Source: a virus
Virus record (IMG/VR): IMGVR_UViG_3300038660_000262
Coordinates: 1 to 49,541 of that record
Length of the DNA: 49,541 nucleotides
Direction: 5' to 3' (one strand)
Position numbers and translations under genes: made by a program. Shown piece after piece: positions 1-49,498 of the stretch (position 1 is the first letter of the stretch; every line of letters starts with the position of its first letter). The notes beneath the pieces were generated by a model. The model saw only the letters and a program-made list of their open reading frames with translations. It did not search any database and was not told the DNA's origin.

Positions 1-15
1 TGAAACCAACGCCAA

Positions 16-38
16 AAACCCGACTGATTAAGTCGGGT
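16..38 (-). terminator. Rho-independent terminator downstream of the attL tRNA remnant
   Basis: A perfect 9-bp stem (AACCCGACT / AGTCGGGTT) with a 5-nt loop is followed, on the reverse strand, by a run of T. It sits just after the 3' end of the tRNA-Met remnant. It is probably the host terminator that originally served the unbroken tRNA gene. A related hairpin of different sequence follows the intact tRNA at the right end. Confidence 0.75.
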
Positions 39-66
39 TCTAAGCGTTTGGATTATTTAGTAAATT

Positions 67-113
67 TGGTTGCGGGAGTAGGATTTGAACCTACGACCTT
101 CAGGTTATGAGCC
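67..113 (-). pseudogene. 3' half of tRNA-Met displaced by integration
   Basis: Reading on the reverse strand, this is the tRNA-Met 3' part: anticodon loop with CAT, variable loop, T arm and terminal CCA. It has no 5' half; similarity to the right-end tRNA stops abruptly at 113/114. It differs from the intact copy only at two positions in the T stem (GTAGG/CCTAC here, GTTGG/CCAAC on the right), which keep base pairing. The simplest reading is that this is the original host 3' half, while the phage supplied the replacement 3' half now at the right end. Confidence 0.85.
93..113. other. attL core (21-bp direct repeat)
   Basis: These 21 bases are identical to 49448-49468 and cover the anticodon loop and flanking stem of tRNA-Met. 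Looser similarity (two mismatches in 49 bases) extends outward to the CCA end at 67. Strand exchange must have occurred within this block. Confidence 0.8.
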
Positions 114-253
114 GAAATCTCTGCGATTCCAATAACTTAATAAAAACAACCACTTAGCTGCCAAGCCTTTGTTTGGGCGTTATTTTCACCCTTGCAAGCA
201 TCAGCACTCGCACCGATTGACCGGCAAAACCAGCGCGAAACACGCAGTCGCAG

Positions 254-273
254 GTTGATGTGGCGTTGATGTA
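254..273 (+). repeat. Candidate arm-type integrase site, left copy
   Basis: Two GTTGATGT units separated by GGC form a 20-base block. The same 20 bases occur once more at 49337-49356, in the same orientation and near the other end. The left block lies about 140 bp inside attL. Paired short direct repeats flanking both cores are typical of tyrosine-integrase arm sites. The rest of 114-628 holds no gene that I can support. Confidence 0.55.
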
Positions 274-628
274 AGCTGATCGATGATGCCCCGATCATAA
301 TCGCTTTCGGCCCAAACCGGTTTTTGAGCGATAGAGCCGGTGCTGCGGTGCGGCCCGTCACAGCAGACATTCGCTACACTTGCGCGATGTTGGTGACGAC
401 GAACTGAGATGCCAATCGCTCAGGTCATCTCCTGCGATCAGAGCCAATGCATTGTTCCGGTACAAAGGACCGTTGCCCACGAGGTTGTTGGGAAAGTTAA
501 AACTCAGGCCCACGCTCAATGGGTTCCTTCTTCGTCCGAAATAATGGTACAGAACTCTCGAGATGTTTATCCTGAGCTAGTTGGTGGAGGTGTGCCGTGA
601 CGAAAAGCAACGCGCAGAGAGCTCGCCA

Positions 629-2149
629 ATGAAGTTTCATGTACTTCCAGCGAGGAATAGCCCGCCGTCGTCCGGACGTAACGAGGTCTACCTCACTATT
701 GATCACTGGAATGACTACTCCTTTGTCACGAGCTTTGCCGTCCATGTGTTCGATGAAAACGGTACAGGCCACAGCTTGTCGAACGTAAGAATAGGTTTTG
801 TCGGTCAAACAGAAAAGATGTCAACATACTCAAATCTGGATGATACTTTCGACAGATTGGGTAAAGATTATTTCTCTCTTGGAATGGACGTCGATTATTA
901 CAAAGCCCTATTTTCTGACTTTAGTGAAGAATGGCGACGCGAGTTCCTAACGCGCATGTGCGATGTCGTTTGGGATGAAGACCTTCTTGAAGCGATAAAG
1001 ACTGAAAAGGTCTTTGAAGTCTCCCACCTCCGCTCGATTTCGATCAGTAAAATTCGTGATCAGTTCGCCAGTGTGCTCAGAGGTGACGTCTTGCTAACCA
1101 ACTTTAAGTTTGGATTCAATCTTCCACCTTCAGAAAAATTTGCCGGTTTTGATCTTTCTTTTCGGGTCAGGGCAAACTCAACACCTAGTACGAACATGCA
1201 CGCTTTGATTGGTAGAAACGGAGTTGGAAAAACAACGCTGTTGAACTCAATGGTTAAAGCCGTTGCCGATCATGTGGAAACGGAAGCGTACTTCTATACA
1301 CAGGACATCTTTGGAGAGGATGAGAAAAATAACGCGTACTTCAGCAGTTTAGTATCGGTTGCTTTCAGTGCTTTTGATCCATTTGACCTTCCCGGCGAAA
1401 GCGATGACACGCCGTACACATATATCGGAATGACGGATTACGCCGATGATGATGGCGCGATCATTAAATCAAAAGATCAGATATTTGAGGAGTTCGTCGA
1501 CGGTTTAGCTTTTTGCTTGGAAGAAAAGCGTAGGCTAAACCGGTGGATCGAAGCAATTGAAACTCTCCAAAGCGACGAAAATTTCGCCGACATGCGCCTG
1601 CTGTCACTGGTGGGGTTGCGTGGCGAAGAGCTAAGAGAAAGAGCGCTTTTTCTGATCGAAAAGATGAGTTCGGGGCATGCGGTAGTGATCCTTGCAATGA
1701 CTCTTCTGGTGGCGAAGGTCGAAGAGAAGACACTGGTGCTATTCGACGAACCAGAAACCCACCTCCACCCACCTCTACTTTCTGCCCTGATGCGAAGTCT
1801 AAGCCAACTTCTACACACAAGAAATGCTGTCGCAATAATTGCGACCCACTCCCCGGTCGTTTTGCAAGAAATTCCGAAATCCTGTGTTTGGAAGGTTTTT
1901 CGCAGCAAACTTGCATCAGAGAGAAAGCGCCCGGATACTGAGACTTTCGGTGAGAACGTAGGAGTCTTGACCCGAGACGTGTTTGGCCTCGAAGTCTCGC
2001 GATCAGGTTTTCACACAGTTCTATCGGAACTAGTCGGCCGAGGCGGGACGTACGATGAAATCATGGATATGCTAGGTGGAAATTTGGGCAATGAGGCTCG
2101 GGGAATACTCAAGGCGATGATCATCAATCGCGATGAGGAGACCACCTAA
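629..2149 (+). CDS. ptuA: Septu-like PtuA: AAA/ABC-type ATPase
   Basis: A cytosolic ATPase of the OLD/AAA_21 type, 506 residues from the chosen ATG at 629. The frame is open upstream to a TTG at 581, but the ATG gives a natural N-terminus and the upstream part looks non-coding. A Walker A motif (GRNGVGKTT) lies near residue 195, Walker B (LVLFDEPETHLHP) near 368-380, and an H-loop (IIATHSP) near 405. The next gene starts 2 nt downstream and encodes an HNH protein. This ATPase-plus-HNH order matches Septu (PtuA/PtuB), where the ATPase assembles with and controls the nuclease during phage infection. Base composition is clearly AT-richer than the phage backbone, suggesting separate transfer. It could instead be another ATPase/HNH defence pair; no reverse transcriptase is nearby, so it is not the retron form. 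Confidence 0.72.
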   Translation: MKFHVLPARNSPPSSGRNEVYLTIDHWNDYSFVTSFAVHVFDENGTGHSLSNVRIGFVGQTEKMSTYSNLDDTFDRLGKDYFSLGMDVDYYKALFSDFSEEWRREFLTRMCDVVWDEDLLEAIKTEKVFEVSHLRSISISKIRDQFASVLRGDVLLTNFKFGFNLPPSEKFAGFDLSFRVRANSTPSTNMHALIGRNGVGKTTLLNSMVKAVADHVETEAYFYTQDIFGEDEKNNAYFSSLVSVAFSAFDPFDLPGESDDTPYTYIGMTDYADDDGAIIKSKDQIFEEFVDGLAFCLEEKRRLNRWIEAIETLQSDENFADMRLLSLVGLRGEELRERALFLIEKMSSGHAVVILAMTLLVAKVEEKTLVLFDEPETHLHPPLLSALMRSLSQLLHTRNAVAIIATHSPVVLQEIPKSCVWKVFRSKLASERKRPDTETFGENVGVLTRDVFGLEVSRSGFHTVLSELVGRGGTYDEIMDMLGGNLGNEARGILKAMIINRDEETT

Positions 2150-2151
2150 AT

Positions 2152-3030
2152 ATGAAGAGATTAGACGCACCGGCATATGCGTCAATGGATCTGTACGATG
2201 AAAGCGTGGCAGGTTTAACTGGCGAGGCAATTAAAATTAAGTTTCTACACAATCGACCGACAGTCGTCGAAGCCTACCAAAGATTTGATAAAGAATCTGT
2301 GACCAAAACTTGGTGCGAGCTTCCAAGGGCCGCTCACGGTAAGCCAGAGGCGATTGTTTTAGGAACACTCTCGAAAGAAGATTTGGTGAGCCTCTACGAT
2401 GATGGTGTTGTAAAATCCAAAGGTAAACCAAGAAAGATCTACGATCAGATCAAATTGGCCGCCCACGATGAGTGTCCGTATTGCGGTGGTATGGGGGAGA
2501 TGGGGGAAGACGGCGAATTGGGCACAGCAGATCACTTTTTGCCGAAGGCATATTTTCCAACATACGCTGTCCTGCCACTAAATTTAGTTCCAGCCTGCGG
2601 AGTCTGCAACAAAGGGATGGGAGGCTCTTTTCCGACCGATCAAAACCTCCAGCCGCTGAATCCATATTTGGACGAAGACCATTTTTTTCTAGAGAAATGG
2701 ACTTCGGCATCCATTCGTCATGAGGTTCCTTTGGTCGTTGATTTTGAAGCGAGGCCACCAGTTGGTTGGCCCGAAAAGGACCAACAACGTGTCAAGGCAC
2801 ATTTCAAAGCTTGCAAGCTTGAGACACGATACCGCTCTCGAGCATGGACGGAACTCACTCCCTTGATATCTCAGCGCAAGTCCACACTGAGCAAATTTAG
2901 CTCCGAGCAGTTCCGCGAGCACCTTTTAGTGATCGCGAATGAGCCGAACTTACCGATAAATGGTTGGAAGCGGACGCTGCATTCTGCATTGGCTGCCTCG
3001 CAATGGTTCTGCGAGGCAGATTTCGCATGA
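2152..3030 (+). CDS. ptuB: Septu-like PtuB: HNH endonuclease
   Basis: A 292-residue protein whose centre is an HNH nuclease. CPYC near residue 108 and CGVCN near 149 form the zinc-binding pairs, and DHFLPK near 127 carries the catalytic Asp-His. The stretch NLVPAC preceding the second CxxC pair is typical of PtuB-like HNH proteins. The start at 2152 is 2 nt after the ptuA stop, so the two are surely co-transcribed. The expected role is nucleic-acid cleavage once the ATPase partner is triggered. Codon use and AT content match ptuA and differ from the integrase and head genes. The C-terminal 110 residues show no motif I recognise. Confidence 0.72.
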   Translation: MKRLDAPAYASMDLYDESVAGLTGEAIKIKFLHNRPTVVEAYQRFDKESVTKTWCELPRAAHGKPEAIVLGTLSKEDLVSLYDDGVVKSKGKPRKIYDQIKLAAHDECPYCGGMGEMGEDGELGTADHFLPKAYFPTYAVLPLNLVPACGVCNKGMGGSFPTDQNLQPLNPYLDEDHFFLEKWTSASIRHEVPLVVDFEARPPVGWPEKDQQRVKAHFKACKLETRYRSRAWTELTPLISQRKSTLSKFSSEQFREHLLVIANEPNLPINGWKRTLHSALAASQWFCEADFA

Positions 3031-3481
3031 CGCTGTCGCGTGGACGTGCCGCAACTTAATCCGGGATAAGTTTTCGAGAACCGACTAGCCGCGTGCTTCA
3101 CGTCAAATGTTTGCTCCAGTTTGATCTGACAATTTCTTATTCACCTGCGGCGAATGTCTGCAAGCCGCTCGAAATAACAGCCACTTGCGCGGCCACAGCG
3201 CCTTTGCTGACTTTGCCACCAAGGTCATCTTCGCTTTTCCACAGATTCCTGCGTTCCCCTCTTGCTCCGAATCGAGCACCCGTGCAGGTTGCACAAATGG
3301 GGGAGAGCAGTCCTCAACCAAAAGCAAAACAGGTCTATCGGAAACACAATTTCGGCCGCTAGAGGCGCGTTAACGCCCACCAGGTCGTTCCACCCGGACA
3401 CTTACCCTGCGCCGTCAAGGCGCGAGCTGCATGCGGTTTGAGCTCAGATCATCCTCGGGTCATTTTGAGGAGGTTTCAGCC
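3031..3481. other. Non-coding stretch between Septu pair and regulator
   Basis: About 450 bases without a supported gene. Short open frames on both strands have poor codon use, no ribosome binding site and no recognisable domain. A Shine-Dalgarno (GAGGAGG) for the next gene lies near 3467-3473. I see no clear terminator for the Septu operon. Confidence 0.5.
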
Positions 3482-4081
3482 ATGGCCTTGCCGCCCCGCG
3501 TGTTTTTCACCCTTAATGAAGCCTCAGCCCGCTGGGGCTGCAACATCGCTGACATCGCAGGCTGGGCACATACAGGCAGATTCCGTATCCTGACAGGAAT
3601 CGCCCCTGTTCGCTGTGGCGAAGAAATCATTGCAGACATGGTCGTGCTGTCGCCTATGGAACTGCTCCCGCTATTCCGTCGGTGTGGCACCGGCCCTTCT
3701 GAAGGCGTCATGCGACGCATCCAGCCTCTGGCCCGCCACGACTGGATGCTGATCACGGATCCCCCAGACGGACTGTCCGTTGGGTTGGCTGATATGCTGA
3801 TCCTGGCTGAGGAGGTTCATGCCTTCGAAGAGGAAAACGATATGGTTCGCCGCGTGACGGCGGGGCCCGGCGTGTCAAAGTCTTATGATTGGGAGGGGAT
3901 GATGGTTGCCTTGATGCTGCGCATACACGACCACGGGCTGCCCGCGACCCAAGCCGAGCTGGTGGCCGAGATGCAGGACTGGTTCGCGGATCAGACGGAC
4001 GGCAAGAAGATGCCAGACAGCCGCAGCATTCGACGCCGTATTACACCGATCTGGAGGGCCCTGCGACGAGAGGATGCGTGA
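3482..4081 (+). CDS. Putative DNA-binding regulator next to the integrase
   Basis: 199 residues from the ATG at 3482, chosen because GAGGAGG lies 8 nt upstream. The N-terminus (LNEASARWGCNIADIAGWAHTGRF) reads like a winged-helix/excisionase-type DNA-binding fold. The C-terminal 60 residues end in a basic helix-turn-helix-like segment (SRSIRRRITPIWRALRRE). I do not recognise a named family. It converges on the integrase, ending 25 nt from the integrase stop. Its place suggests a regulator of integration or lysogeny. It is the best candidate for a lysogeny regulator in the left arm, but that is inference only. Confidence 0.5.
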   Translation: MALPPRVFFTLNEASARWGCNIADIAGWAHTGRFRILTGIAPVRCGEEIIADMVVLSPMELLPLFRRCGTGPSEGVMRRIQPLARHDWMLITDPPDGLSVGLADMLILAEEVHAFEEENDMVRRVTAGPGVSKSYDWEGMMVALMLRIHDHGLPATQAELVAEMQDWFADQTDGKKMPDSRSIRRRITPIWRALRREDA

Positions 4082-4106: not shown

Positions 4107-5372
4107 TCAGGCCGACTTGGTGTCACCGTGATTGTCCGCGTCGTGAACCAGCTTCGGCATCGGTCGGAACGCGCTGGCCACGGCATCGACCCCCGCGCGC
4201 AGGGGTGAATCCATCAGATGCGCATAGCGCAGCGTGGTCTGCGTCTGGCTGTGGCCCAGCAGTTTGCCGATCATTTCCAGTGACGCCCCGCCGCTGACAA
4301 GCAGAGAGGCAAAGGTGTGGCGCAGGTCGTGAATGCGCACGTCCTGCAGCGCGCATTGCTTCTGGATCTGTACCCAGAACCGCCGCACCTCCTGCACCGG
4401 CTGGCCGGGCGTATCGCCGGGGAACAGCCACGGTGTACCGCTTGGCACCGACAACTGGCGCTGGCGCACGATGGCGGCGGTCTCGTCCGAGATCGGAACG
4501 CGATGCGCACGGCGCTGTTTTGTCATCATCGGTGGTTTCGACCAGCTCAGATGTTCAAGGTTGAACTGTTCGAACCGCGCCTGCCGCACCTCGCCCAGCC
4601 GTGCGCCGGTCAACATGCACAGACGGATGATATCGGCGGCACGCCGGTCTTCCGCCGCATCCAGAGCGGCGCCCAAGCTGGTGATCTCCTCCTTGGACAG
4701 GAACCGCTCGCGCGGCGTTTCAATGCGGCGGTGAAAGCGCTGGGCGGGGTTGTCGGCGCACCAGCCCCATTCCACCGCCAGCGTGAACATTTTGCGCAAC
4801 ACCTCTCCCATCCGGTTGGCGCGCACCGGCGTGGGCTTTGCGGGCTGCAGCTTTCGCGCCCGGTTGTTGGGTTTTTCCTTGTGCGGTCGCGCCCGGCCCT
4901 CAGCGATCTTGTTGAGCAGCTTGTCGACGTCGGTCGAGGTGATTTCCGTCACAAGTTTCCGGCCCCAGACCGGGGCCACCAGCTTGGCCAGCGAGGCGCG
5001 CTGGTCGGCGGCGTTGCGTTCGGCGAGCTTTGGCAGATGCTGGGCGCAGTAGCGCTCGATCAGATCGTTCACACGCGGCGCTTCGCGCAGCGCCCCGCGC
5101 TGGGCCAACGGATCAGCCCCGGCGTCGATCTCGCGGCGGATTTCCTTGGCCCGCTCGCGCGCCGCCGACACCGACCATTCCGGCCAGCGGCCGAAGGTCA
5201 TCCGGCGTTGCCGCCCGGCGTGGCGATAGTCGAGCGTGAAGGCCCGACCGCCGCCGCGATAGATGCAGGCAGCGAACCCGCGCACGTCTGTGTCGAAAAT
5301 CTGGTAATCGCGCCCGACGATGGGCTCGGCCTCGCGGAGTACTTTCTCGGTCAGTTTGGTGCGCTCGGCCAT
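4107..5372 (-). CDS. Tyrosine-recombinase phage integrase
   Basis: 421 residues from the ATG at 5372, which has AAGGA about 9 nt upstream; an in-frame ATG nine codons earlier lacks a site. The N-terminus (FDTDVRGFAACIYRGGGRAF) is the DUF4102-like arm-binding domain of P4-type integrases. A SAM-like core-binding domain follows, then the catalytic domain. I can see the catalytic Arg in TGARLGEV (near 257), HDLRHTF (near 347), GHSQTQTT (near 373) and the Tyr in RYAHL (near 381). All active-site residues are present. It should catalyse recombination between attP and the tRNA-Met attB. It is not adjacent to attL: the Septu pair and a regulator lie between. The GTTGATGT repeats at both ends are candidate arm sites. 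Confidence 0.95.
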   Translation of the reverse strand: MAERTKLTEKVLREAEPIVGRDYQIFDTDVRGFAACIYRGGGRAFTLDYRHAGRQRRMTFGRWPEWSVSAARERAKEIRREIDAGADPLAQRGALREAPRVNDLIERYCAQHLPKLAERNAADQRASLAKLVAPVWGRKLVTEITSTDVDKLLNKIAEGRARPHKEKPNNRARKLQPAKPTPVRANRMGEVLRKMFTLAVEWGWCADNPAQRFHRRIETPRERFLSKEEITSLGAALDAAEDRRAADIIRLCMLTGARLGEVRQARFEQFNLEHLSWSKPPMMTKQRRAHRVPISDETAAIVRQRQLSVPSGTPWLFPGDTPGQPVQEVRRFWVQIQKQCALQDVRIHDLRHTFASLLVSGGASLEMIGKLLGHSQTQTTLRYAHLMDSPLRAGVDAVASAFRPMPKLVHDADNHGDTKSA

Positions 5373-5433
5373 GGGTCCTGTCCTTCTTGCATCCGACATG
5401 AGGCGTGGATTCGCCGCACTATCAAGACAAGCA

Positions 5434-5897
5434 TGGAGGACGGGGTGGCGGGGAGGCGCAGAGTGGCGGAAAGGTCGCCCCCTTTGTGCCACCCCTTGTT
5501 TTACTGGCGATCTGGCGCTGGACAGGGAAGTCGTCGGTCGGATGCACCGCGATCACAGGTCCTTGGCGCGCGCAGAACGATGCCGAAAGACCCGGAATCG
5601 ATGCACCGGAACACGCCGATTTTGTAAATCTCCAACAAATTCAGTGGGTGGCAAGGGTGCCGTGTCGGGTGCCACCCCCTCTTTGCCCGCCAATGCCGGT
5701 AAATCACCTGTAAATCCCGGTGTTCGCAGGTGTTTGCAGCTTCGGCCTGCGTTCCGCATCCCCCACGACCACGGGCGGCGCGGCGGCGCTTCATCCCACC
5801 TGACCCGCAAAACTCAAGATAACCCAATAAAACAAGGGGTGGCACAAAGGGGCCCGCCTTTGCGCCACCCTGCGCCTCGCCGCCACCCCTTCGCCTC
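5434..5897. repeat. Imperfect long inverted repeat in the integrase/early-operon intergenic region
   Basis: The arms at about 5434-5506 and 5824-5897 are reverse complements over roughly 73 bases with around ten mismatches; the inner 29 bases have one. The 317-bp loop holds a third, shorter copy of the GTGCCACCCC motif near 5665-5690, which pairs with GGGTGGCA at about 5645. The region 5373-5965 has no supported gene; its open frames are antisense and unlike phage genes. It is the likely control region between the divergent integrase and early operon, or a remnant of repeated sequence. Confidence 0.55.
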
Positions 5898-11076: not shown

Positions 11077-13467
11077 ATGAACCAATTTGCTCACAACAAG
11101 CTCGTCTCCTTTATTTGGTCTATCGCAGATGATTGCCTTCGCGACGTTTACGTCCGGGGAAAATATCGTGATGTCATCCTGCCGATGGTCGTGCTTCGTC
11201 GCCTTGACACACTTTTGGAACCCACCAAAGCCGAAGTTCTCGAAGAGGTCCGCTTTCAGAAAGACGAAATGAAGGCGACTGAGTTGGACGATGCGCCCCT
11301 CAAAGCGGCCTCCGGTTACGTGTTCTTCAACACCAGCAAATGGACGCTGAAGCGCCTGCACGCCACTGCGACCAACAACCAGCAAATCCTGCTGGCCAAC
11401 GTGGAGGATTATCTGAATGGCTTCAGTGACAACGTCAAAGAGATCATTTCTCGCTTCAAGCTGCTGGAGCAGATGCGGCACATGGCGGACAAACAGGTGC
11501 TGCTGGATGTACTCGAAAAGTTCATCTCACCCTACATCAACTTGACGCCGCACCAAGTCGAAGACCCCGACGGCAACACGCTCCCGGCGCTGAGCAACCT
11601 CGGCATGGGCTACGTTTTCGAAGAGTTGATCCGCAAGTTCAACGAAGAAAACAACGAAGAGGCGGGCGAACACTTTACCCCGCGCGAAGTGATCCATCTG
11701 ATGACGCACCTGATCTTTGACCCGATCAAGGATCGCCTGCCTCCAGTCATGACGATCTATGACCCTGCCTGCGGCAGCGGTGGCATGCTGACTGAATCGC
11801 AAAACTACGTCATTAACCCTGACGGCTTGATCAAGGCCACCGGAGATATTTACCTTTACGGCAAGGAAATCAACGACGAAACCTACGCGATCTGCAAATC
11901 TGATATGATGATCAAGGGCAACAACCCCGAGAACATCAGGGTCGGCTCCACCCTATCGACCGATGAATTTGCCGCGCATCGCTTCGATTTCATGCTCTCT
12001 AACCCACCCTATGGCAAAAGCTGGAACAGCGAACTCAAATACATCAAGGACGGCAAAGACGTCATCGATCCACGCTTTAAGGTCCAACTCGCTGATTACT
12101 GGGGCAATGTAGAGCCTCAAGACGCCACCCCTCGTTCCAGTGACGGCCAGTTGCTGTTCCTGATGGAGATGGTGGGCAAGATGAAGACTACCAAGGACAG
12201 CGCCATCGGCGCACGCATTGCCTCGGTGCACAACGGCTCCAGCCTGTTCACCGGCGATGCGGGCGGCGGCGAGTCTAACATCCGCCGCCATATCATCGAA
12301 AATGACATGCTGGACACCATCATCCAGCTGCCGAACAACCTATTCTATAACACCGGAATCACCACCTATATCTGGCTGCTGACCAATGCCAAACCCGCCG
12401 ACAGGCGGGGCCGCGTGCAGTTGATCGACGCCAATCTTCTGTTCCGCAAACTGCGCAAGAACCTTGGCGACAAGAATTGTGAATTCGCGCCCGAGCATAT
12501 TGATGCCATCACCAGCGCCTACCTTGCCTTCCAGCCGGTCGAACGCGCGCTGGACGGTAACGGTGATCCCACTGGCATCGCGGTGCAAATCTTTGACAAC
12601 ACCGATTTCGGTTATCACAAGGTCACTATCGAACGCCCCGACCGCCGCCGCGCCCAGTTCAGTGCCGAACGGCTGGCCCCCCTGCGCTTCGACAAATCTC
12701 TGCGGGAACCGATGGAGCATCTGTGGGAGACCCATGGCGATGCGGTTTATGAAGCGGGCTTCCTGAAAACCCAAGCCAAGGCAATTGTGGAGTGGTGTGA
12801 AGAACAAGGCATCGCCCTGAACGCCAAGGCCCGTGCCAAGCTAATCGATACCGCCAACTGGAAACGTCTGCGTGATTTGCTCGACCACGGCCACGCGCTG
12901 ATGCAAATCATCGGGACGGATGAGACCGCCGATTACAATGACTTCTGCGATCGCATGAACAAGGTGCTGAAGGCCCGCAAGATCAAGCTGTCGGCGACCG
13001 AGAAGAACGCGATCCTGAATGCCGTCAGCTGGTATGACGAACATGCAGAAAAGGTCATCGCCAAACGCGCCAAAATGACCAAACAGGAACTGGAGGATCT
13101 GACCGCCCATCTGGGCTGTGACGTGGGCGATCTGGCCGATTTTGGCTATTACCGCCAATCCGACGGTGCCTGGCTGACCTACGCGTCCAACGCAGACCTG
13201 CGCGATTCTGAGTCTGTGCCGCTGAAAGACAGCATCCACCGCTATTTCCGGGCCGAGGTGAAGCCCCATGTCGATGAGGCCTGGATCAACCTCGACACGG
13301 TCAAGATCGGGTATGAGATCAGCTTCAACAAATACTTCTACCGCCACAAACCCCTGCGGCGTCTGGACAAGGTAACGGCGGATATTCTGGCGCTGGAACA
13401 GCAGGCGGACGGGCTGATCTCGGATATTCTGGGGGTTCCGGTCGCAGCGCTGTCGGAGGTGGAATGA
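11077..13467 (+). CDS. hsdM: Type I restriction-modification system, methyltransferase subunit HsdM
   Basis: 796 residues. An N-terminal HsdM helical domain is followed by an N6-adenine methyltransferase: motif I PACGSGGM near residue 230 and motif IV NPPYG near 309. The protein is longer than the usual 500-550 residues; the C-terminal 300 residues (from about 500) are helical and probably contact HsdS and DNA, as in the larger HsdM subfamily. It modifies adenine in the bipartite site chosen by HsdS. The stop overlaps the hsdS start (ATGA), so the subunits are translationally coupled. No strong Shine-Dalgarno is seen before the ATG. The gene stands in the phage as cargo between the early operon and a terminator. 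Confidence 0.95.
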   Translation: MNQFAHNKLVSFIWSIADDCLRDVYVRGKYRDVILPMVVLRRLDTLLEPTKAEVLEEVRFQKDEMKATELDDAPLKAASGYVFFNTSKWTLKRLHATATNNQQILLANVEDYLNGFSDNVKEIISRFKLLEQMRHMADKQVLLDVLEKFISPYINLTPHQVEDPDGNTLPALSNLGMGYVFEELIRKFNEENNEEAGEHFTPREVIHLMTHLIFDPIKDRLPPVMTIYDPACGSGGMLTESQNYVINPDGLIKATGDIYLYGKEINDETYAICKSDMMIKGNNPENIRVGSTLSTDEFAAHRFDFMLSNPPYGKSWNSELKYIKDGKDVIDPRFKVQLADYWGNVEPQDATPRSSDGQLLFLMEMVGKMKTTKDSAIGARIASVHNGSSLFTGDAGGGESNIRRHIIENDMLDTIIQLPNNLFYNTGITTYIWLLTNAKPADRRGRVQLIDANLLFRKLRKNLGDKNCEFAPEHIDAITSAYLAFQPVERALDGNGDPTGIAVQIFDNTDFGYHKVTIERPDRRRAQFSAERLAPLRFDKSLREPMEHLWETHGDAVYEAGFLKTQAKAIVEWCEEQGIALNAKARAKLIDTANWKRLRDLLDHGHALMQIIGTDETADYNDFCDRMNKVLKARKIKLSATEKNAILNAVSWYDEHAEKVIAKRAKMTKQELEDLTAHLGCDVGDLADFGYYRQSDGAWLTYASNADLRDSESVPLKDSIHRYFRAEVKPHVDEAWINLDTVKIGYEISFNKYFYRHKPLRRLDKVTADILALEQQADGLISDILGVPVAALSEVE

Positions 13468-14750
13468 TGGAAGGGTTGGGGTTCAACACATACGACGCCT
13501 ACAAGGACAGCCATGCGAGCTGGCTTGGCGAAGTGCCTGCTGATTGGCAGGTCGGTCCCGGCCGGATTTGCGTATACGAGAACAAGAACAAAAACACAGG
13601 CATGAAGGAAAGCACCGTGCTTTCTCTCAGCTATGGTCGCGTCATTGTCAAAGACGAGGACAAGATGACCGGGCTGGTGCCGGAGAGTTATGAAACCTAT
13701 CAGATCGTTCAGCCCGGCGACATCATCATTCGCGGCACTGACCTTCAGAACGACGTCACCAGCCTTCGCACCGGGCTGGCCAAAGATCATGGCATCATCA
13801 CTTCGGCGTACATCAATCTTCGCCCTAAACCAAACGCCTACGCCGAGTTTCTGCACTACCTTTTGCATTCCTACGACGTGAAGAAGGTTTTCTACGGATT
13901 GGGCTCTGGCCTGCGCCAGAACCTTTCCTATGTTGACTTCAAGTATCTCACGATTCCGCTCCCCAGCCTTTCTGAACAGCGCGCCATCGTTGCGCTCCTT
14001 GATGACAAATGCGCCAAGATCGACGGGGCGGTGAAGATCAAGGAAGACCAGATCGCGCTGCTGCGCGAGCGTCGGCAAATCATCATCCAGGACGCCGTCA
14101 CCCGAGGCCTGAACCCCGACGTGCCGATGAAAGACAGCGGCGCAAGCTGGCTTGGCGAAGTGCCTGCTGATTGGCAGGTCGGTCCCGGCCGGATTTGCGT
14201 ATACGAGAACAAGAACAAAAACACAGGCATGAAGGAAAGCACCGTGCTTTCCCTCAGTTATGGTCGCGTCATTGTCAAAGACGAGGACAAGATGACCGGG
14301 CTGGTTCCCGAAAGTTACGAGACCTACCAGATCGTTCAGCCCGGCGACATCATCATTCGTGGCACCGACCTGCAGAACGACGTTACCAGCCTTCGCACTG
14401 GACTGGCCAAAGACCATGGCATCATCACTTCGGCCTATATCAATCTTCGCCCGAAGCCGAACGCCTATGCCGAGTTTCTGCACTACCTCTTGCATTCCTA
14501 CGATGTGAAGAAGGTTTTTTACGGACTGGGATCAGGCTTGCGCCAGAACCTCTCCTACGTCGACTTCAAGTATCTGACGATACCGTTGCCTAGCCTCACA
14601 GAGCAACGCGCAATAGTGGCGTTCCTCGACGAAGAGTCAGCCAAAATTGATCGCGGCATAGACATGATTAGACGCGAGATCGCCGCGCTCAAGGAATACA
14701 AAACCAGCCTGATCAACGCGGCCATCACCGGCAAGATCAAAGTCATTTAG
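13464..14750 (+). CDS. hsdS: Type I specificity subunit HsdS with duplicated identical recognition domain
   Basis: 428 residues, two target recognition domains (TRDs) separated by conserved helices. Residues 18-169 and 227-378 are identical over all 152 positions that I compared, including RTGLAKDHGIITSAYINL and SGLRQNLSYVDF. The helical regions differ: SEQRAIVALLDDKCAKID versus TEQRAIVAFLDEESAKID. Normal HsdS proteins have two different TRDs and an asymmetric target. Two equal TRDs in opposite orientation predict a symmetric bipartite target, in which both half-sites are the same sequence inverted. At DNA level the copies differ at roughly 38 of 456 positions, all synonymous. Coupled to hsdM by ATGA; hsdR follows 8 nt later. 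Confidence 0.93.
   Translation: MMEGLGFNTYDAYKDSHASWLGEVPADWQVGPGRICVYENKNKNTGMKESTVLSLSYGRVIVKDEDKMTGLVPESYETYQIVQPGDIIIRGTDLQNDVTSLRTGLAKDHGIITSAYINLRPKPNAYAEFLHYLLHSYDVKKVFYGLGSGLRQNLSYVDFKYLTIPLPSLSEQRAIVALLDDKCAKIDGAVKIKEDQIALLRERRQIIIQDAVTRGLNPDVPMKDSGASWLGEVPADWQVGPGRICVYENKNKNTGMKESTVLSLSYGRVIVKDEDKMTGLVPESYETYQIVQPGDIIIRGTDLQNDVTSLRTGLAKDHGIITSAYINLRPKPNAYAEFLHYLLHSYDVKKVFYGLGSGLRQNLSYVDFKYLTIPLPSLTEQRAIVAFLDEESAKIDRGIDMIRREIAALKEYKTSLINAAITGKIKVI
13515..14597 (+). repeat. Direct repeat encoding the two HsdS recognition domains
   Basis: Copy 1 is 13515-13970 and copy 2 is 14142-14597, offset 627 bp. The first ~105 bases are nearly identical; later parts carry frequent silent changes. 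By eye I count about 38 differences, none changing an amino acid. Confidence 0.85.
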
Positions 14751-14758
14751 GGGGCAGC

Positions 14759-17700
14759 ATGGTCAGCAACACACGCGAAATCGCACTCGAACAGGCCATT
14801 CAGAAACATCTGACTGGCCATACGGCGGAAGAGCTGGCAGGCCAACCCGCACCCGTGAGCGGTGGCCCCTATCGCATCGGCCTGCCCAGTGATTTCAACG
14901 CCCAGTTCGCCCTAGACACCGCGATGTTCTGGCAGTTTCTGCACGCGACACAGGGCAAGGAACTGGCCAAGCTGCAATCGCGCAACCCATCCGATTGGCA
15001 GGCCAAGATCCTTGAACGCTTTGATCGCATGATCAAGAAGAACGGCCTGCTGCATCTCCTGAAAAAGGGCCTCGACGTTGACGATGCGCATCTGACGCTG
15101 ATGTACCCCGCCCCGCTGGCCAGCTCTGCCGCCCGCGTGCATGAAAACTTCACCGCCAATATCTGGAGCATCACCCGCCAGGTCCGCTATAGCCAGACCA
15201 ATCCGCTGGAAGAGATCGACATGGTGCTGTTCCTGAACGGCATGCCTCTGATCACGGTGGAGTTGAAAAACGCCTGGACCGGCCAGACCGCCCGCTTTCA
15301 CGGCCAGAAGCAGTACCGCGAAGGCCGCGATGCCACCCAACCCCTGCTGCAGTTCGGCCGCGCGCTGGTGCATATGGCAGTGGACACCGACGAAGTGTTC
15401 ATGGCGACCAAGCTGGCCGGACCCTCCACCTTCTTCCTGCCGTTCAACAAGGGCCACAACAACGGCGAGGGCAACCCGCCCAATCCGAACGGCCACAAGA
15501 CCGCCTATCTGTGGGAAGAAGTGTTCCATCCCGCCAGCCTTGCGGGCATCATTCAGCATTTCGTGCTGCTGGAGGGCAAGGCCGCGGATCCGCTGGCAAA
15601 GAAATCGCTGATCTTCCCGCGCTATCAGCAGCTCGACGTCGTGCGGCGCCTGCTGGACCATGCGTCCACCAACGGTGTGGGACACAGCTATCTGATCCAG
15701 CATTCGGCGGGGTCTGGCAAATCGAATTCGATCACTTGGGCCGCGTATCAACTGATCGAAACCTATCCCCAAAGCACCAGCCTGCCCGGCGCGCGCGGTT
15801 TGGACCAGCCGCTGTTCGACTCTGTCATCGTGGTGACGGACCGCCGGTTACTGGACAAACAGCTGCGCGACAACATCAAGGATTTCTCCGAGGTCAAGAA
15901 CATAGTTGCCCCGGCGCTGCGGTCTTCCGACCTGAAATCGGCGCTGGAAAACGGCAAGAAGATCATCATCACGACGATTCAGAAGTTCCCGTTCATCATC
16001 GACGGCATTTCAGACCTGAGCGACAAGCGGTTCGCGGTGATCATCGACGAAGCGCACAGCGGCCAAAGCGGCCAGGCCCATGACAACATGAACCGTGCGA
16101 TGGGTGCAGGCGATGTGGACCCAGACGAGGACGATCCGCAAGACCGCATCCTGGCGGCGATGCAATCGCGCAAGATGCGCGGCAACGCGTCCTATCTGGC
16201 ATTTACCGCCACGCCCAAGGCGACGACGCTTGAGAAATTTGGCGAGCGGCAGCCGGATGGCAGCTTCGCGCCGTTTCACCTTTATAGCATGAAGCAGGCG
16301 ATCGAGGAGGGTTTTATCTTCAATGTGCTGGCCAACTACACGACCTACAAAAGCTATTACGAAATCCAGAAATCGGTGGAGGAGAACCCGCTTTTCGACA
16401 CCAAGAAGGCCCAGAAGAAGCTGCGCGCCTATGTCGAACGCAGCCAGCACACGATCAACACCAAGGCTGAGATCATGCTGGACCATTTCATCCCGCAGGT
16501 CGTGAACACCAAGAAACTGCGCGGTAAGGCCAAGGGGATGATCATCACCCAGAACATCGAAGCTGCGATCCGCTACTACAAGGCGGTGACCAAGCTGCTC
16601 GATGCCCAAGGGAACCCGTTCAAGGCGCTGGTCGCCTTTTCGGGCGAGAAGACCGTCGATGGCATGAAGTACACAGAGGCCGAGATGAACGGCTTCGCCG
16701 AAAGCGAAACGCGGGATAAATTCGACACGGACGAATACCGGCTGCTGATCGTGGCGAATAAGTATCTGACCGGGTTCGACCAGCCCAAACTGACCGCGAT
16801 GTACGTGGACAAGAAGTTGCAATTCGTGCTGGCCGTACAGGCGCTATCTCGTCTCAACCGTTCGGCCCCGAAGCTGGGCAAACGGACGGAGGATCTGTTC
16901 ATCCTCGACTTCTTCAACAGCGTCGATGACATTAAGACCGCCTTCGACCCCTTCTATACTGTGACCACACTGTCCGAAGCGACAGATGTCAACGTGTTGC
17001 ACGAGCTGAAGGACGCAATGGACCAAGTGGGCGTTTATGAGTGGCAGGAGGTCGAAGACTTCGTGACCCGGTATTTTGCCGGTGAAGATGCTCAGACCCT
17101 AAGCCCTGTCATCGATATTGCGGCCAATCGCTTCAACGCCGAATTAGAGCTGCCCGACCCCGAGAAGATCGACTTCAAGATCAAGGCAAAACAGTTCGTA
17201 AAGATCTATGGTCAGATGGCGTCGATCATACCATTTGAAGTGCTGGAATGGGAAAAACTTTTCTGGTTGCTGAAGTTTCTGATCCCAAAGCTCAAGATTA
17301 AGGATCCCAATCAAGACATGCTCGACGAGCTGCTGGAGGCCGTCGATCTGTCCTCGTATGGCCTGGAGCGCACCAAGCTGAACCATGAAATCGGTCTCGA
17401 CGCATCCGACACGGAACTGACGCCTCAAAATCCAAACCCGCGCGGCAACCGCGACGGTGATACGGAAACAGACCCATTGGATGAAATCATTCGCAGCTTC
17501 AACGAGCGGTGGTTTCAGGGCTGGAGCGCGACACCGGAAGAGCAACGGGTCAAATTTGTCAATATCGTCAATAGCATCCGTGCACACCCGGACTACACGG
17601 CCAAGTATGAGGACAATGCTGACCCCTTCAACCGTGGTCTAGCACTGGAGAAAATCCTGATGGACGTGATGCTGAAACGGCGGAAGGACGAACTGGAGCT

Positions 17701-17800
17701 CTATAAGCTCTTTGCGTCTGATCCAGCGTTCAAGGCGGCTTGGAGCCAGAACATCGAACAGGTGCTTAACAAGAACTTGGACAACCAACCCAGCGCCTGA
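14759..17800 (+). CDS. hsdR: Type I restriction endonuclease subunit HsdR
   Basis: 1013 residues. The N-terminal nuclease domain has the PD-(D/E)xK pattern: EEIDMVLFLNG followed by LITVELKNAW (near residues 152-172). Two RecA-like motor domains follow, with Walker A (SAGSGKS, near 315) and DEAH (VIIDEAHSGQ, near 428), and motif III-like FTATPK. The C-terminal third is helical and should dock to HsdM/HsdS. The subunit translocates DNA using ATP and cuts away from unmethylated sites. All motifs look intact, so the system should restrict. It starts 8 nt after hsdS. A hairpin follows the stop. Confidence 0.95.
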   Translation: MVSNTREIALEQAIQKHLTGHTAEELAGQPAPVSGGPYRIGLPSDFNAQFALDTAMFWQFLHATQGKELAKLQSRNPSDWQAKILERFDRMIKKNGLLHLLKKGLDVDDAHLTLMYPAPLASSAARVHENFTANIWSITRQVRYSQTNPLEEIDMVLFLNGMPLITVELKNAWTGQTARFHGQKQYREGRDATQPLLQFGRALVHMAVDTDEVFMATKLAGPSTFFLPFNKGHNNGEGNPPNPNGHKTAYLWEEVFHPASLAGIIQHFVLLEGKAADPLAKKSLIFPRYQQLDVVRRLLDHASTNGVGHSYLIQHSAGSGKSNSITWAAYQLIETYPQSTSLPGARGLDQPLFDSVIVVTDRRLLDKQLRDNIKDFSEVKNIVAPALRSSDLKSALENGKKIIITTIQKFPFIIDGISDLSDKRFAVIIDEAHSGQSGQAHDNMNRAMGAGDVDPDEDDPQDRILAAMQSRKMRGNASYLAFTATPKATTLEKFGERQPDGSFAPFHLYSMKQAIEEGFIFNVLANYTTYKSYYEIQKSVEENPLFDTKKAQKKLRAYVERSQHTINTKAEIMLDHFIPQVVNTKKLRGKAKGMIITQNIEAAIRYYKAVTKLLDAQGNPFKALVAFSGEKTVDGMKYTEAEMNGFAESETRDKFDTDEYRLLIVANKYLTGFDQPKLTAMYVDKKLQFVLAVQALSRLNRSAPKLGKRTEDLFILDFFNSVDDIKTAFDPFYTVTTLSEATDVNVLHELKDAMDQVGVYEWQEVEDFVTRYFAGEDAQTLSPVIDIAANRFNAELELPDPEKIDFKIKAKQFVKIYGQMASIIPFEVLEWEKLFWLLKFLIPKLKIKDPNQDMLDELLEAVDLSSYGLERTKLNHEIGLDASDTELTPQNPNPRGNRDGDTETDPLDEIIRSFNERWFQGWSATPEEQRVKFVNIVNSIRAHPDYTAKYEDNADPFNRGLALEKILMDVMLKRRKDELELYKLFASDPAFKAAWSQNIEQVLNKNLDNQPSA

Positions 17801-18309: not shown

Positions 18310-19572
18310 ATGGACCTTGTCTTCGCGCCAAGCGAGATCGAGACGTGGCCGATTGATCGGCTGCGGCCCTATGCTCGCAATGCCAAGATGCACGGCGACG
18401 ATCAGGTGGCGAAGATCGCCGCCAGCATGGCGAAGTTCGGCTGGACCGTGCCTTGCATGGTGGCCGACGATGGCGAGCTGATTGCTGGGCATGGCCGGGT
18501 GCTGGCGGCAACGATGCTGGGCCTGAAGGACGTGCCGGTGATCCGGCTTGGCCATCTCGACGAGGCCGAACGTCGGGCTTACCGCATCGCGGACAATAAA
18601 TTGACCGAGTTGGGCGACTGGAACGAGGCAATGCTGCGCGACGAGATCGCGGGGCTGCTGGCCGAGGATTTCGACCTGTCGTTGCTGGGCATCACCGACG
18701 AGGACCTGGATGCCCTGCTGCGTGATCCGGATGCGCTGGGCAGCGATGGGCCCATCGAGGGCGAGGATGACATTCCCGAACCGCCGGTCACGCCAGTGTC
18801 GGTTGCGGGCGATCTCTGGCAGCTGGGATCGCACCGGCTGATCTGCGGTGACAGCACCACGGCCGACGTGGTTGGCCGTCTGCTTGGCGATGCGAAACCG
18901 CTGCTGATGGTCACCGATCCGCCCTATGGCGTGGAATATGACCCGTCCTGGCGCAATCAGGCGGGCGCGGCCAAGACCAAACGCACTGGCAAGGTGCTGA
19001 ACGATGATCGTGCCGATTGGCGCGAGGCTTGGGCGCTGTTCCCCGGCGACGTCGCCTATGTCTGGCACGGTGCGCTGCACGCCGCGACCGTGGCCGAGAG
19101 CCTCGTCGCGGCGGGTTTCGCAGTCCGGTCGCAAATTATCTGGGCCAAGGATCGGCTCGTTCTCAGCCGCGGCGATTACCACTGGCAGCACGAACCCTGC
19201 TGGTATGCGGTGAAAAAGACCGGCAAGGGCCACTGGGCGGGTGACCGAAAGCAGACCACGCTGTGGCACATCTCCAGCAAGGACCAGGACACAGCCACTG
19301 TTCACGGCACCCAGAAGCCGGTCGAATGCATGCGCCGCCCGATCCTGAACAATTCCAGCCCCGGCCAAGCGGTCTTTGAACCGTTCATGGGATCCGGCAC
19401 CACGCTGATCGCCGCAGAAACCACAGGCCGGGTGTGCTTCGGGATCGAGTTGAACCCGGCTTACGTCGATGTCGCCATCGAGCGCTGGCAGCAGTTCACC
19501 TGTGCCAATGCCGTGCTGGCTGACACCGGTGAAACTTTCGCCGAGCTGAAGGCCAAGAGGCTCGCGGCATGA
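18310..19572 (+). CDS. ParB-like domain fused to DNA methyltransferase (DPPY type)
   Basis: 420 residues. The N-terminal ~130 residues are a ParB/Srx-type domain: WPIDRLRPYARNAK and ELIAGHGRVLAA, then YRIADNKLTEL. The C-terminal half is an amino-methyltransferase of the beta class: DPPYG near residue 203 precedes the SAM-binding motif FMGSGTT near 360. DPPY points to N6-adenine methylation. ParB-MTase fusions are common in phages of Rhodobacterales and are thought to modify phage DNA. The stop overlaps the next gene's start (ATGA), and the next gene is a paralogue in its N-terminal half. Confidence 0.88.
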   Translation: MDLVFAPSEIETWPIDRLRPYARNAKMHGDDQVAKIAASMAKFGWTVPCMVADDGELIAGHGRVLAATMLGLKDVPVIRLGHLDEAERRAYRIADNKLTELGDWNEAMLRDEIAGLLAEDFDLSLLGITDEDLDALLRDPDALGSDGPIEGEDDIPEPPVTPVSVAGDLWQLGSHRLICGDSTTADVVGRLLGDAKPLLMVTDPPYGVEYDPSWRNQAGAAKTKRTGKVLNDDRADWREAWALFPGDVAYVWHGALHAATVAESLVAAGFAVRSQIIWAKDRLVLSRGDYHWQHEPCWYAVKKTGKGHWAGDRKQTTLWHISSKDQDTATVHGTQKPVECMRRPILNNSSPGQAVFEPFMGSGTTLIAAETTGRVCFGIELNPAYVDVAIERWQQFTCANAVLADTGETFAELKAKRLAA

Positions 19573-20942
19573 ACGCTCCGATCCTGCCGGGCCGGATCGA
19601 GCACTGGCCGATTGACCGGCTGCGCCCTTATGCCCGTAACGCCAAGACCCACGACGCCGACCAAGTGGCAAAGATCGCCGCCAGCATGGCTGAGTTCGGT
19701 TGGACCGTCCCGGTGCTGGTGGCCGCCGACGGCGAGCTGATCGCCGGGCACGGCCGTGTCCTGGCTGCCGCCCAGCTCGGACTGCCCGAGGCCCCGGTGA
19801 TCGTACTGGGTCATCTGACCGAGGCCCAGCGCCGGGCTTATCGCATCGCCGACAACAAACTGACCGAGCTGGGTGGCTGGGACGAGGCGCTGCTCATGCA
19901 GGAATTGCAGGCGCTGCTGGCCGAGGATTTCGACCTCGGGCTGATCGGGATCCCCGAGGACGAGTTGGATGCCTTGCTGGCAGGCGCCGACGACCACCCG
20001 GCGATCTCTGACGATGCCGCCGACGCCATCCCCGGACCGCCAGCCGAACAGATCACCAAGCCGGGCGATATCTGGGTGCTGGGCAAGCATCGGCTGTGCT
20101 GTGGCGATGCCACCGATCCGGACGTCGTTGCGAAGCTGACGCAGGGCGAACAAGCGACGCTGATGTTCACCTCGCCACCCTATGCCCAGCAGCGCGACTA
20201 TGGCGCGGCCAAGGACAAGGTCGGCGATTGGGACGCATTGATGCAGGGCGTGTTCACAGCGGCCCCGGTCACGGACGACGTCCAGCTTCTGGTGAACCTT
20301 GGCCTCGTGCACCGCGACGGCGAATGGATGCCCTATTGGGAAGGATGGGTGGAATGGATGCGCACCTCTGGCTGGCGACGCTTTGGCTGGTATGTGTGGG
20401 ATCAGGGCCCGGGTCTGCCGGGCGACTGGAACGGCCGCCTGGCCCCGTCGCACGAGTTCATTTTCCACTTCAACCACAGCTCACGCAAACCACACAAAAC
20501 TGTCCCGTCCAAACACGCGGGTGTAACCCTCGGCGGCGGTGGGCTGCGCGGAGCCGACGGCACCGTTCACGCCAAGACCGGCACCGGCAACGCGATCCAA
20601 AGCCACCGCATCCCCGACAGCGTTTTCCGGATCATGCGCCACAAGGGAGGGCTGGGCGCGGCCGGATCGCATCCGGCGGTATTCCCTGTGGCGCTGGTCG
20701 AAGCAGTGCTGACTGCTTTCAGCGATCCGGGCGACCTGATCTATGAACCCTTCTGCGGCTCCGGCACCCAGTTGATCGCTGCCGAACGCGCTGGGCGAAG
20801 GTGTTTCGCGATGGAACTGGACCCGGTCTATTGCGACGTCGCCGTGCGACGGTGGGAGATAGCGACGGGGCGGATGGCCAGTCGCGCCGCCGAACAGGAC
20901 GAGGCTGAGAGCCCGGCTCCTCAAACGAGGAAACGCGCATGA
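19569..20942 (+). CDS. ParB-like domain fused to DNA methyltransferase (SPPY type)
   Basis: 457 residues. The ParB-like N-terminus closely repeats that of the preceding gene (WPIDRLRPYARNAKTH, ELIAGHGRVLAAAQLGL), so the pair arose by tandem duplication. The catalytic half differs: TSPPYAQQRDYG is a motif IV of the N4-cytosine kind, and FCGSGTQL is the SAM motif near the C-terminus. A long insertion between them (HFNHSSRKPHKTVP region) is probably the recognition segment. Together the two enzymes likely modify two different targets. It overlaps the next small gene by ATGA. Confidence 0.88.
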   Translation: MNAPILPGRIEHWPIDRLRPYARNAKTHDADQVAKIAASMAEFGWTVPVLVAADGELIAGHGRVLAAAQLGLPEAPVIVLGHLTEAQRRAYRIADNKLTELGGWDEALLMQELQALLAEDFDLGLIGIPEDELDALLAGADDHPAISDDAADAIPGPPAEQITKPGDIWVLGKHRLCCGDATDPDVVAKLTQGEQATLMFTSPPYAQQRDYGAAKDKVGDWDALMQGVFTAAPVTDDVQLLVNLGLVHRDGEWMPYWEGWVEWMRTSGWRRFGWYVWDQGPGLPGDWNGRLAPSHEFIFHFNHSSRKPHKTVPSKHAGVTLGGGGLRGADGTVHAKTGTGNAIQSHRIPDSVFRIMRHKGGLGAAGSHPAVFPVALVEAVLTAFSDPGDLIYEPFCGSGTQLIAAERAGRRCFAMELDPVYCDVAVRRWEIATGRMASRAAEQDEAESPAPQTRKRA

Positions 20943-26972: not shown

Positions 26973-28333
26973 TGCACCACGCCCAGATCGCCCAGCGGGC
27001 CTTCAACACGCCACTGATGGTGGACCCTGCCAAGGCACTGGCCTTCTTGTCAGGGCTGGGTCCGCGCATCACCGGGCAGGACATCACCTTTCAGGGCGTG
27101 GAGACCGATGCCGCTGATCAGGCCGAAGCCGTCCTTTTAGCCCGCGCCTCGCTGTTCGGCACTGATCTCGCCCAACGCCATCAACGGAATGGAAGCCAGC
27201 CCTACGCGGTGGTGGACGGCATCGCGGTGATCGAAATCGCCGGAACGCTGGTGCATCGCGGGGCGTGGATCGGGCAATCCTCGGGCCTCACTTCTTATGA
27301 GGGCATTGCCGCCCAGATCGACGCGGCGATCACGGATCCTGCGGTGCTCGGCATCGCTCTCGATATCGACAGCTTTGGCGGTGAAGTCGCCGGGGCCTTC
27401 GATCTGGCCGATCGCATCCGCGCCGCCCGCGCGCAAAAGCCGGTGCAGGCCTTCGTGGCCGAACATGCGCTGTCCGCTGGCTACGTTCTCGCCAGCCAGG
27501 CCGACTGGATCATCCTGCCGCGCACCGGGGCCGTCGGCAGCATCGGCGTCGTGGCCCTGCACACCGACATGAGCGGCGCGCTGGACCAGAAAGGCATCGC
27601 TGTCACGCTGATCCATGCCGGGATCCACAAGATCGACGCCAATCCCTACCAACCACTGCCCAAGGCCGTGGGCGACCAGATGCAGCGCGAGCTGGAGGAT
27701 TTGCGCCTGCTCTTCGCCCAGACCGTCGCCGATGGTCGTGGAGACCGGATCGACGTCGCGCGAGCGCTGGGCACCGAAGCGGCGGTGTTTCGGGGCGAGG
27801 CCGCAATCTTTGCAGGTCTTGCCGACGAACTTGCGGATCCAATCACCGCCTTCCGCGCCTTCGCCGCCGCCCCAGGGGGCATCAATCCCACCAGCAGAAA
27901 GGGTCCACAGATGACCACCCACTCCACCGACACCCCGAATTCGGATCAGATTGCCGATGCCACGCCGTCCACCGAGTCCGTCGCACCGGGCACGCCTGAA
28001 CCGCCCGTCGCGGCGCCCACGCCCACGTCTGAGGCACTTGCACCGGCTGCTCCCGCAGGTGACGCAGCGAGCCTGACCGCCGATGCCATCCGCGCCGAGG
28101 CGGCCGAAGTGGCGCAGGTCTGCGCGCAGGCTGCCCGGCTGGGTGTGGATATCGACGCCGCCGACGCCGTCGCGCGCGGGCTGAAACCCGAAGCCCTGCG
28201 CGCCCGCGTGCTGGCCGATCTTGCCTCGCGCGGCGATGCCGCAGGCATTATCGCCACGGCCCCGGCTGCGGCGGCCGCCAAAGACAGCCCGATCATCGCC
28301 GCCGCAAAGAAGGCCGCCACAGCCTCGCGCTGA
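26972..28333 (+). CDS. Prohead S49 protease with C-terminal scaffold (gpC/Nu3-like)
   Basis: 453 residues from ATG 26972 (a GTG codon precedes it). The N-terminal 300 residues are an SppA/ClpP-fold S49 protease: catalytic Ser in HALSAGY near 168 and Lys near 220 in GIHKIDANPY. After about residue 310 comes a Pro/Thr/Ala-rich, acidic helical scaffold part, as in lambda gpC. It processes the portal and scaffold during prohead maturation. A nested in-frame start at 27911 would give the scaffold alone. Confidence 0.92.
   Translation: MHHAQIAQRAFNTPLMVDPAKALAFLSGLGPRITGQDITFQGVETDAADQAEAVLLARASLFGTDLAQRHQRNGSQPYAVVDGIAVIEIAGTLVHRGAWIGQSSGLTSYEGIAAQIDAAITDPAVLGIALDIDSFGGEVAGAFDLADRIRAARAQKPVQAFVAEHALSAGYVLASQADWIILPRTGAVGSIGVVALHTDMSGALDQKGIAVTLIHAGIHKIDANPYQPLPKAVGDQMQRELEDLRLLFAQTVADGRGDRIDVARALGTEAAVFRGEAAIFAGLADELADPITAFRAFAAAPGGINPTSRKGPQMTTHSTDTPNSDQIADATPSTESVAPGTPEPPVAAPTPTSEALAPAAPAGDAASLTADAIRAEAAEVAQVCAQAARLGVDIDAADAVARGLKPEALRARVLADLASRGDAAGIIATAPAAAAAKDSPIIAAAKKAATASR
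27911..28333 (+). CDS. Nested scaffold protein from internal start (Nu3-like)
   Basis: In-frame ATG 27911 starts the MTTHSTDTPNSDQ segment, right where the protease domain ends. It would give a 140-residue, Ala/Pro/Thr-rich scaffold with a final helix (AAEVAQVCAQAARLGVDIDAADAVA). Lambda makes Nu3 in the same way from within gene C. A short purine stretch (AAAGGG) lies about 8 nt upstream. Confidence 0.55.
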   Translation: MTTHSTDTPNSDQIADATPSTESVAPGTPEPPVAAPTPTSEALAPAAPAGDAASLTADAIRAEAAEVAQVCAQAARLGVDIDAADAVARGLKPEALRARVLADLASRGDAAGIIATAPAAAAAKDSPIIAAAKKAATASR

Positions 28334-48430: not shown

Positions 48431-48444
48431 GGGAATCCCTACGA

Positions 48445-49336: not shown

Positions 49337-49356
49337 GTTGATGTGGCGTTGATGTA
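49337..49356 (+). repeat. Candidate arm-type integrase site, right copy
   Basis: The same 20 bases as 254-273 (two GTTGATGT units), in the same orientation, about 92 bp from the attR core. The 144 bases between the SRAP gene start and this repeat hold nothing else that I can support. Confidence 0.55.

Positions 49357-49421: not shown

Positions 49422-49498
<77 letters not shown>

Follow-up and report, generated by a model that had tools for sequence, protein, structure and literature searches.

Described counterparts of the locus analysed here include Septu and the type I-A retrons, in which a PtuA ATPase is paired with a PtuB HNH nuclease. In Septu EcB88, substitutions in the Walker or HNH motifs abolished immunity, and tRNA-Tyr is cut by the system (PMC13096335); the PtuAB pair of retron Eco7 depletes tRNA-Tyr. 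Tha/Ith of Staphylococcus aureus phages provides a precedent for prophage-borne defence that spares its own phage (PMC11087260). The PDC-M01 family appears in the accessible portions of the literature as computational mentions, none of them with anti-phage activity, and for genomes of the Bacillus cereus group 41 duplicates are given in which a PDC-M01 call and a Septu call coincided (PMC11811056). Among searched titles and abstract openings none gave a defence role to the Ea59 protein of phage lambda, an absence that is unproven with subscription papers mostly outside the search; within the same scope Ea59 was not linked to Septu, and Ea31 combined with HNH led only to Cas9 nicking work.

The window, that is, the whole 49,541-base stretch of an IMG/VR virus record, has the layout of a prophage integrated into a tRNA-Met gene and carries an ATPase gene and an HNH gene close to its left end. 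We conclude that this pair is probably a prophage-borne anti-phage system of Septu build, belonging with Ea59/Ea31 to the PDC-M01 subfamily and lodged in the slot for variable cargo that separates attL from int and orf216.

Genes, profiles and predicted folds of the pair

The first gene (629..2149, plus strand) codes for a PtuA-like ABC-type ATPase of the PDC-M01A/Ea59 family, running from ATG 629 to its stop (506 aa), and the second (2152..3030, plus strand) for a PtuB-like HNH nuclease of the PDC-M01B/Ea31 family, running from ATG 2152 to its stop (292 aa). The genes lie 2 bp apart on the same strand and both are intact, in agreement with the earlier note, which had reported an intact ATPase/HNH pair at 629-3030. 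A longer ATPase frame exists from TTG 581, and ATG 629 was taken as the start because it aligned with the starts of relatives. A promoter and terminator scan stayed at chance level and gave no promoter beyond it.

The best PADLOC match of the ATPase was PDC-M01A (PDLC04235, 3e-193), a full-length match over residues 1-504, followed by the PtuA1 profile PDLC00282 (1.5e-175, also residues 1-504); the remaining PtuA profiles shown were far weaker (5.4e-25 at best). The HNH protein matched PDC-M01B best and at full length (PDLC04256, 3.8e-93, residues 1-289), and its HNH core alone scored 2.4e-9 and 1.2e-8 on PtuB profiles against 3.3e-39 on PDC-M01B. The PtuA/PtuB profile search that the earlier note had proposed therefore gave a full-length PtuA match and only a weak, core-restricted PtuB match; TIGR02646 did not match the HNH protein at E≤10, and Pfam and NCBIfam gave it no name at E≤1. 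Because PDC-M01A/B were the best profiles, PtuB was matched in the core only and TIGR02646 was absent, we file the pair, from its sequence, as PDC-M01, a Septu-related family, rather than as Septu type I. PADLOC lists this family as phage defence candidate M01.

Predicted folds were obtained as AlphaFold models from alignments of 29 HNH sequences (mean pLDDT 89.5) and 27 ATPase sequences (87.4). When the HNH model was compared with 74 chains by VIA-align, the first eight rows (Z 9.4-11.2) were PtuB of retron Ec78/Eco7, of Ec83 and of E. coli Septu together with two retron I-A HNH chains, with 190-207 residues aligned at an rmsd of 4.8-6.2 over model residues 1 to 278-287. The ninth row was an Ec83 mutant complex (Z 4.7), and the first unrelated row was McrA (3.9). 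Foldseek alone returned 13 rows for the HNH model, none at E≤0.001. VIA-align comparison of the ATPase model with 998 chains placed PtuA or retron I-A ATPases in all of rows 1-16 (Z 15.2-18.9), and ABC ATPases came after them, from Z 14.9. The alignments in these 16 rows started at model residues 144-159 and did not cover earlier residues. The start of E. coli Septu PtuA falls at model residue 158-159, which leaves the ATPase here with roughly 145-158 extra N-terminal residues; the extension (residues 1 to ~145) was present in 10/10 aligned relatives, and no stretch listed by Pfam on the ATPase starts before residue 178.

Profile searches of the PDB led from the ATPase to PtuA (2.5e-10) and from the HNH protein to the HNH protein 4h9d first (3.8e-5) and to PtuB-type HNH proteins at 2.4e-4, while a PDB search with the HNH sequence by itself returned one row (E 0.5). 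The motifs of both proteins are complete. Walker A, the SSGH signature, the DEPE of Walker B and the H-loop histidine were invariant in the 27 ATPases, as were C108, C111, D127, H128, N144, C149 and C152 in the 29 HNH proteins; the spacing of H128 and N144 equals that of H75 and N91 in PtuB of Septu EcB88 (PMC13096335). The designation of the pair as Septu-like, made in the earlier note, holds because the predicted structures align best with PtuB and PtuA, and gene make-up and motifs fit it as well, but at the level of profiles the best names are the related PDC-M01A/B, which also match lambda Ea59/Ea31.

The slot between attL and the integrase

The attL core (95..113), GACCTTCAGGTTATGAGCC, is identical to a second copy at 49450-49468 within an intact tRNA-Met gene at the right end (49422..49498, minus strand), and 0 such copies were expected in shuffles. 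Tandem arm-like sites lie 159 bp inside the left core (254..273, plus strand) and 113 bp inside the right core (49337..49356, plus strand) and are presumed to be arm-type integrase sites. Non-coding DNA at 330..628 forms the upstream part of the cargo block, in which homology to two relatives, L003 and L004, begins from ~346; 330-628 was also tried as a known repeat and rejected, as 2 of 295 family genomes matched it and one of the two was the known relative G002. Beyond the pair lie orf216 (3431..4081, plus strand), which is kept beside the integrase and belongs to phrog_13283, with no function assigned there, and a tyrosine integrase (4107..5492, minus strand; likely start at 5372). This integrase is the only PF00589 match in the whole record, and the pair, lying between it and the attL arm, is therefore inside the element. 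The pair, whose composition had been noted as foreign, lies in DNA of low G+C: the three 1-kb windows covering 1-3000 had a G+C of 0.47-0.49, compared with at least 0.60 for 35 of the 45 windows starting at 4001 or later, and further low stretches lie at 11-18, 31 and 45-47 kb.

Several other genes of the prophage were recorded alongside. A type I restriction-modification system occupies 11077-17800 (HsdM 11077-13467, HsdS 13464-14750, HsdR 14759-17800), with a G+C of 0.53-0.60, below most of the prophage. It is followed at 18310-20942 by a DNA methyltransferase (PADLOC MTase_II, 5.9e-103) and then a ParB-like/methyltransferase fusion. Low-G+C DNA at 45724-46605 codes for a trypsin-like peptidase that PADLOC matched weakly to PDC-S45 (1.1e-11) and LmuA (5e-7), and the attR end (46728-49192) carries SOS-type genes for a UmuC-like polymerase (IMS), an S24 peptidase and an SRAP protein.

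Relatives of the integrase were found at 28 viral loci and, at E≤1e-150, as 49 matches in 35 of the 394 genomes of the family to which the Roseovarius gaetbuli genome belongs; the regions around 36 of these 49 matches were examined. The core was found in 23 loci, 20 of them with the arm at 158-159 bp. Slots were measured from orf216 (from int in L060) to the attL arm, or to the core less 159 bp in L012, L059 and L064. This bounded 22 of 47 loci, which with the window makes 23 slots, the other 25 having no core in the available stretch. One slot, that of L066, was empty, at 305 bp and without any ORF of 80 aa, and the others measured 1.8-8.9 kb. The stretch between attL and int/orf216 is thus a recurrent cargo slot in related prophages. 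The location of the pair between attL and the integrase was given correctly in the earlier note; its premise that the integrase normally adjoins attL was not, because in the relatives the integrase is followed by orf216 and then by the variable slot.

PADLOC was run on 30 of the 60 slot ORFs of at least 150 aa, and slots lacking a strong match may therefore still hold defence genes. Strong matches were obtained in 11 of the 23 slots, some of which may be over-called because the ATPase, kinase and RT profiles of PADLOC are promiscuous. At E≤1e-30, eight slots held a retron VI reverse transcriptase (L012), a CBASS cyclase, phospholipase and 2TM effector (L044), a kinase of mad6/PD-T4-6 (L045), NsnB, together with AriA at 3.3e-30 (L048), NsnA (L049), PDC-S37/Hhe (L052), RT-Toprim I-C (L054) and PDC-M68B (L063). 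The remaining three were L029, whose reverse transcriptase shares 97% identity with the L012 enzyme, the window itself, and L004, with an ATPase/HNH pair 89% and 85% identical to that of the window. Weaker matches occurred in L014 (5.4e-20) and L064 (1.7e-14), and the proteins scanned from L015, L028, L046, L051, L059, L060, L069 and L076 gave none; L050, whose own proteins were outside the scan, has a large protein resembling the match-less one of L012. Among ten control proteins taken from the window outside the slot, six had no match at 1e-5, and the four that matched comprised two type I restriction-modification proteins, one methyltransferase and one weak match (1.1e-11). This att-proximal slot, empty in one prophage and filled with varied defence genes in others, should be useful in the search for new systems.

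Two features of these loci were observed in passing. A conserved protein of ~446 aa lies beside attL in 7 of 21 slots (L012, at 11955-13292, L014, L015, L029, L048, L049 and L050); it had no PADLOC match and a sub-threshold match to an Xre/MbcA/ParS C-terminal domain. An attP-like arm-core-arm arrangement was seen in L029, L052, L054, L060 and in L044 and L045, which come from one genome with two such integrases 50 kb apart; the arrangement fits tandem prophages or circular phage DNA.

Relatives in lambda, E. coli and other records

In the phage collection, 24 records matched the ATPase and 18 the HNH protein, and 22 and 17 of these, respectively, were lambda, lambda-like or lambda-derived (one labelled Campylobacter phage). 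The best record was gut phage MT835554 (48.8% for the ATPase and 33.1% for the HNH protein), and the closest named relatives were lambda Ea59 (47% identity over 99%) and Ea31 (32% over 98%), which themselves matched PDC-M01A at 3.9e-201 and PDC-M01B at 5.8e-113 in PADLOC. In lambda, int is followed by the recombination site (27724-27738), then by ea59, which is read away from 26973, and then by ea31; in phage O276 the equivalent site is labelled attP.

DNA of the lambda pair was matched in 91 of 5426 E. coli genomes (at least 80% of the pair in 68), and near-identical or 90-95% identical DNA to the pair of E. coli MCJCHV-1 in 90 of the 5426. Gene context was read in three E. coli records. MCJCHV-1 has icd, ATPase, HNH, an integrase pointing at the pair (annotated as frameshifted) and an excisionase; this remnant of another prophage, at icd, has the same order as the window (att, ATPase, HNH, integrase). 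Record pMY504-2 has the same start and integrase-like frames after the pair, and the third record, one of those with 90-95% identity, has the pair in a different island, which carries conjugation genes. Among plasmid records, 59 matched the HNH protein and 93 the ATPase, some of them phage-like. Three of the 'plasmids' (NZ_CP104294.1, NZ_CP068597.1 and NZ_CP082339.1), from unrelated bacteria, have the 48.5-kb length of lambda and lambda-level identity to the pair and may be lambda control DNA.

At E≤1e-30 the ATPase was found in 6 of the 394 family genomes. Viral contigs scanned with the HNH protein alone yielded nothing, and the HNH alignment yielded 56 loci there. Nearness of the pair to an integrase was assessed in the 24 of 34 viral records with a PF00589 match; 6 pairs lay near one against 7.2 expected (P 0.82), or 13 against 9.6 when counted on a circle (P 0.07). 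As this general nearness was not significant, only individual integrase-adjacent cases are claimed. Among other family pairs, integrase-like frames lie a few kb off in L080 and L081, and none were found near the pair in L082 or in L041, a 3.1-kb contig.

The presence of relatives in lambda raises the alternative that the pair benefits the phage itself, in its growth or in competing with a co-infecting phage, and does not defend the lysogen. 'Ea' stands for early, and the lambda relatives are early gene products, expressed in lytic growth. We regard this alternative as unlikely, since the pair also occurs on plasmid records and in the E. coli island with conjugation genes, and both lambda genes are listed as non-essential (PMC10695390).

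Probable role and comparison with known systems

Protection of the lysogen is a plausible candidate function of the pair, and defence as such is a function that we infer strongly rather than report as a result. By analogy with PtuAB, drawn because of fold and motifs, an oligomer of the ATPase would bind and restrain the HNH nuclease until some indication of infection, which the N-terminal extension may sense, released it. The freed nuclease would then cut nucleic acid, either DNA or, as in retron Eco7 and Septu EcB88, tRNA, and this cutting would stop the infecting phage and thereby protect the lysogen. A two-gene operon with a nuclease could also be an addiction or toxin-antitoxin module, the nuclease acting as toxin, the ATPase as its restraint, and prophage stability being the gain; PtuA and PtuB of retron Eco7 do together constitute a toxin (PMC11555353). 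We consider this distinctly unlikely, because Eco7 toxicity in that work needed both genes, neither being toxic alone, and because the antitoxin there was the retron part, which is absent here.

The Rhodobacterales MAG locus L002 is 94.5% identical to the window over 66-3486; frames to the left of its attL core (L002 1-2497) resemble, by eye, the protease/capsid genes of a phage head module, as though a second prophage lay next to the core. In L004 (Palleronia pontilimi) the block corresponding to 346-3100, at ~86% nucleotide identity, has the reverse orientation with respect to int, orf216 and the arm; L003 (Roseovarius gaetbuli, a short contig) has it reversed with respect to the start of orf216. 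Beside the block in L004 lies what we take, by eye, to be an IS66-like remnant. The frames are open in all four close copies. Between the window or L002 and L003 or L004, dN/dS was 0.086-0.095 for the ATPase and 0.125-0.165 for the HNH gene, which indicates purifying selection and hence that the genes are maintained; it was 0.14 between the window and L002, and 0.29 and 0.72, from very few changes, between L003 and L004. The two proteins diverged in parallel (r 0.945 between ATPase and HNH distances over 22 pairs, with 0/5000 permutations as high), a correlation that supports only joint travel of the genes because the pairs are related by descent. A functionless passenger brought in by recombination or an insertion element, to which the inversions and the remnant in L004 would point, is very improbable and already disfavoured by the selection seen between diverged copies and by the four open copies.

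Reading the pair as a defence system, we put forward tentatively, and with less confidence than the reading itself, that Ea59/Ea31/PDC-M01 may form a branch of its own within PtuAB defence, distinguished by a conserved ~145-residue N-terminal infection sensor and occupying an att-side cargo slot from lambda to alphaproteobacterial prophages. If this were true, the ea59-ea31 genes of lambda, which lie in its dispensable b region, would be a defence locus. The candidate family is now tied on one side to PtuAB proteins of solved structure and on the other to two lambda genes that have no assigned role, and the role of Ea59/Ea31 is therefore directly testable in laboratory E. coli.

Among known systems, PDC-M01 agrees with the pair in the full-length match of both proteins and in gene order, and no difference from it was found. 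Septu type I shares the ATPase and HNH make-up, and the predicted folds fit its PtuA (8eea_C, Z 17.4) and PtuB (8eea_G, Z 10.2); it differs in that the ATPase here carries the N-terminal extension and the HNH protein falls outside TIGR02646 and is weak on PtuB profiles. The PtuA/PtuB effectors of type I-A retrons (Ec78/Eco7, Ec83) gave the best structure and PDB profile matches; a type I-A retron as such was rejected, the record having no PF00078 match at E≤1 and Rfam giving only tRNA. In lambda, the pair lies ~750 bp from the annotated recombination site, with int on the other side of attP, so that the two come to lie at opposite ends of the lambda prophage, whereas here both are at the attL end; Ea59 and Ea31 nevertheless share with this pair full-length homology of both genes, adjacency and the same gene order.
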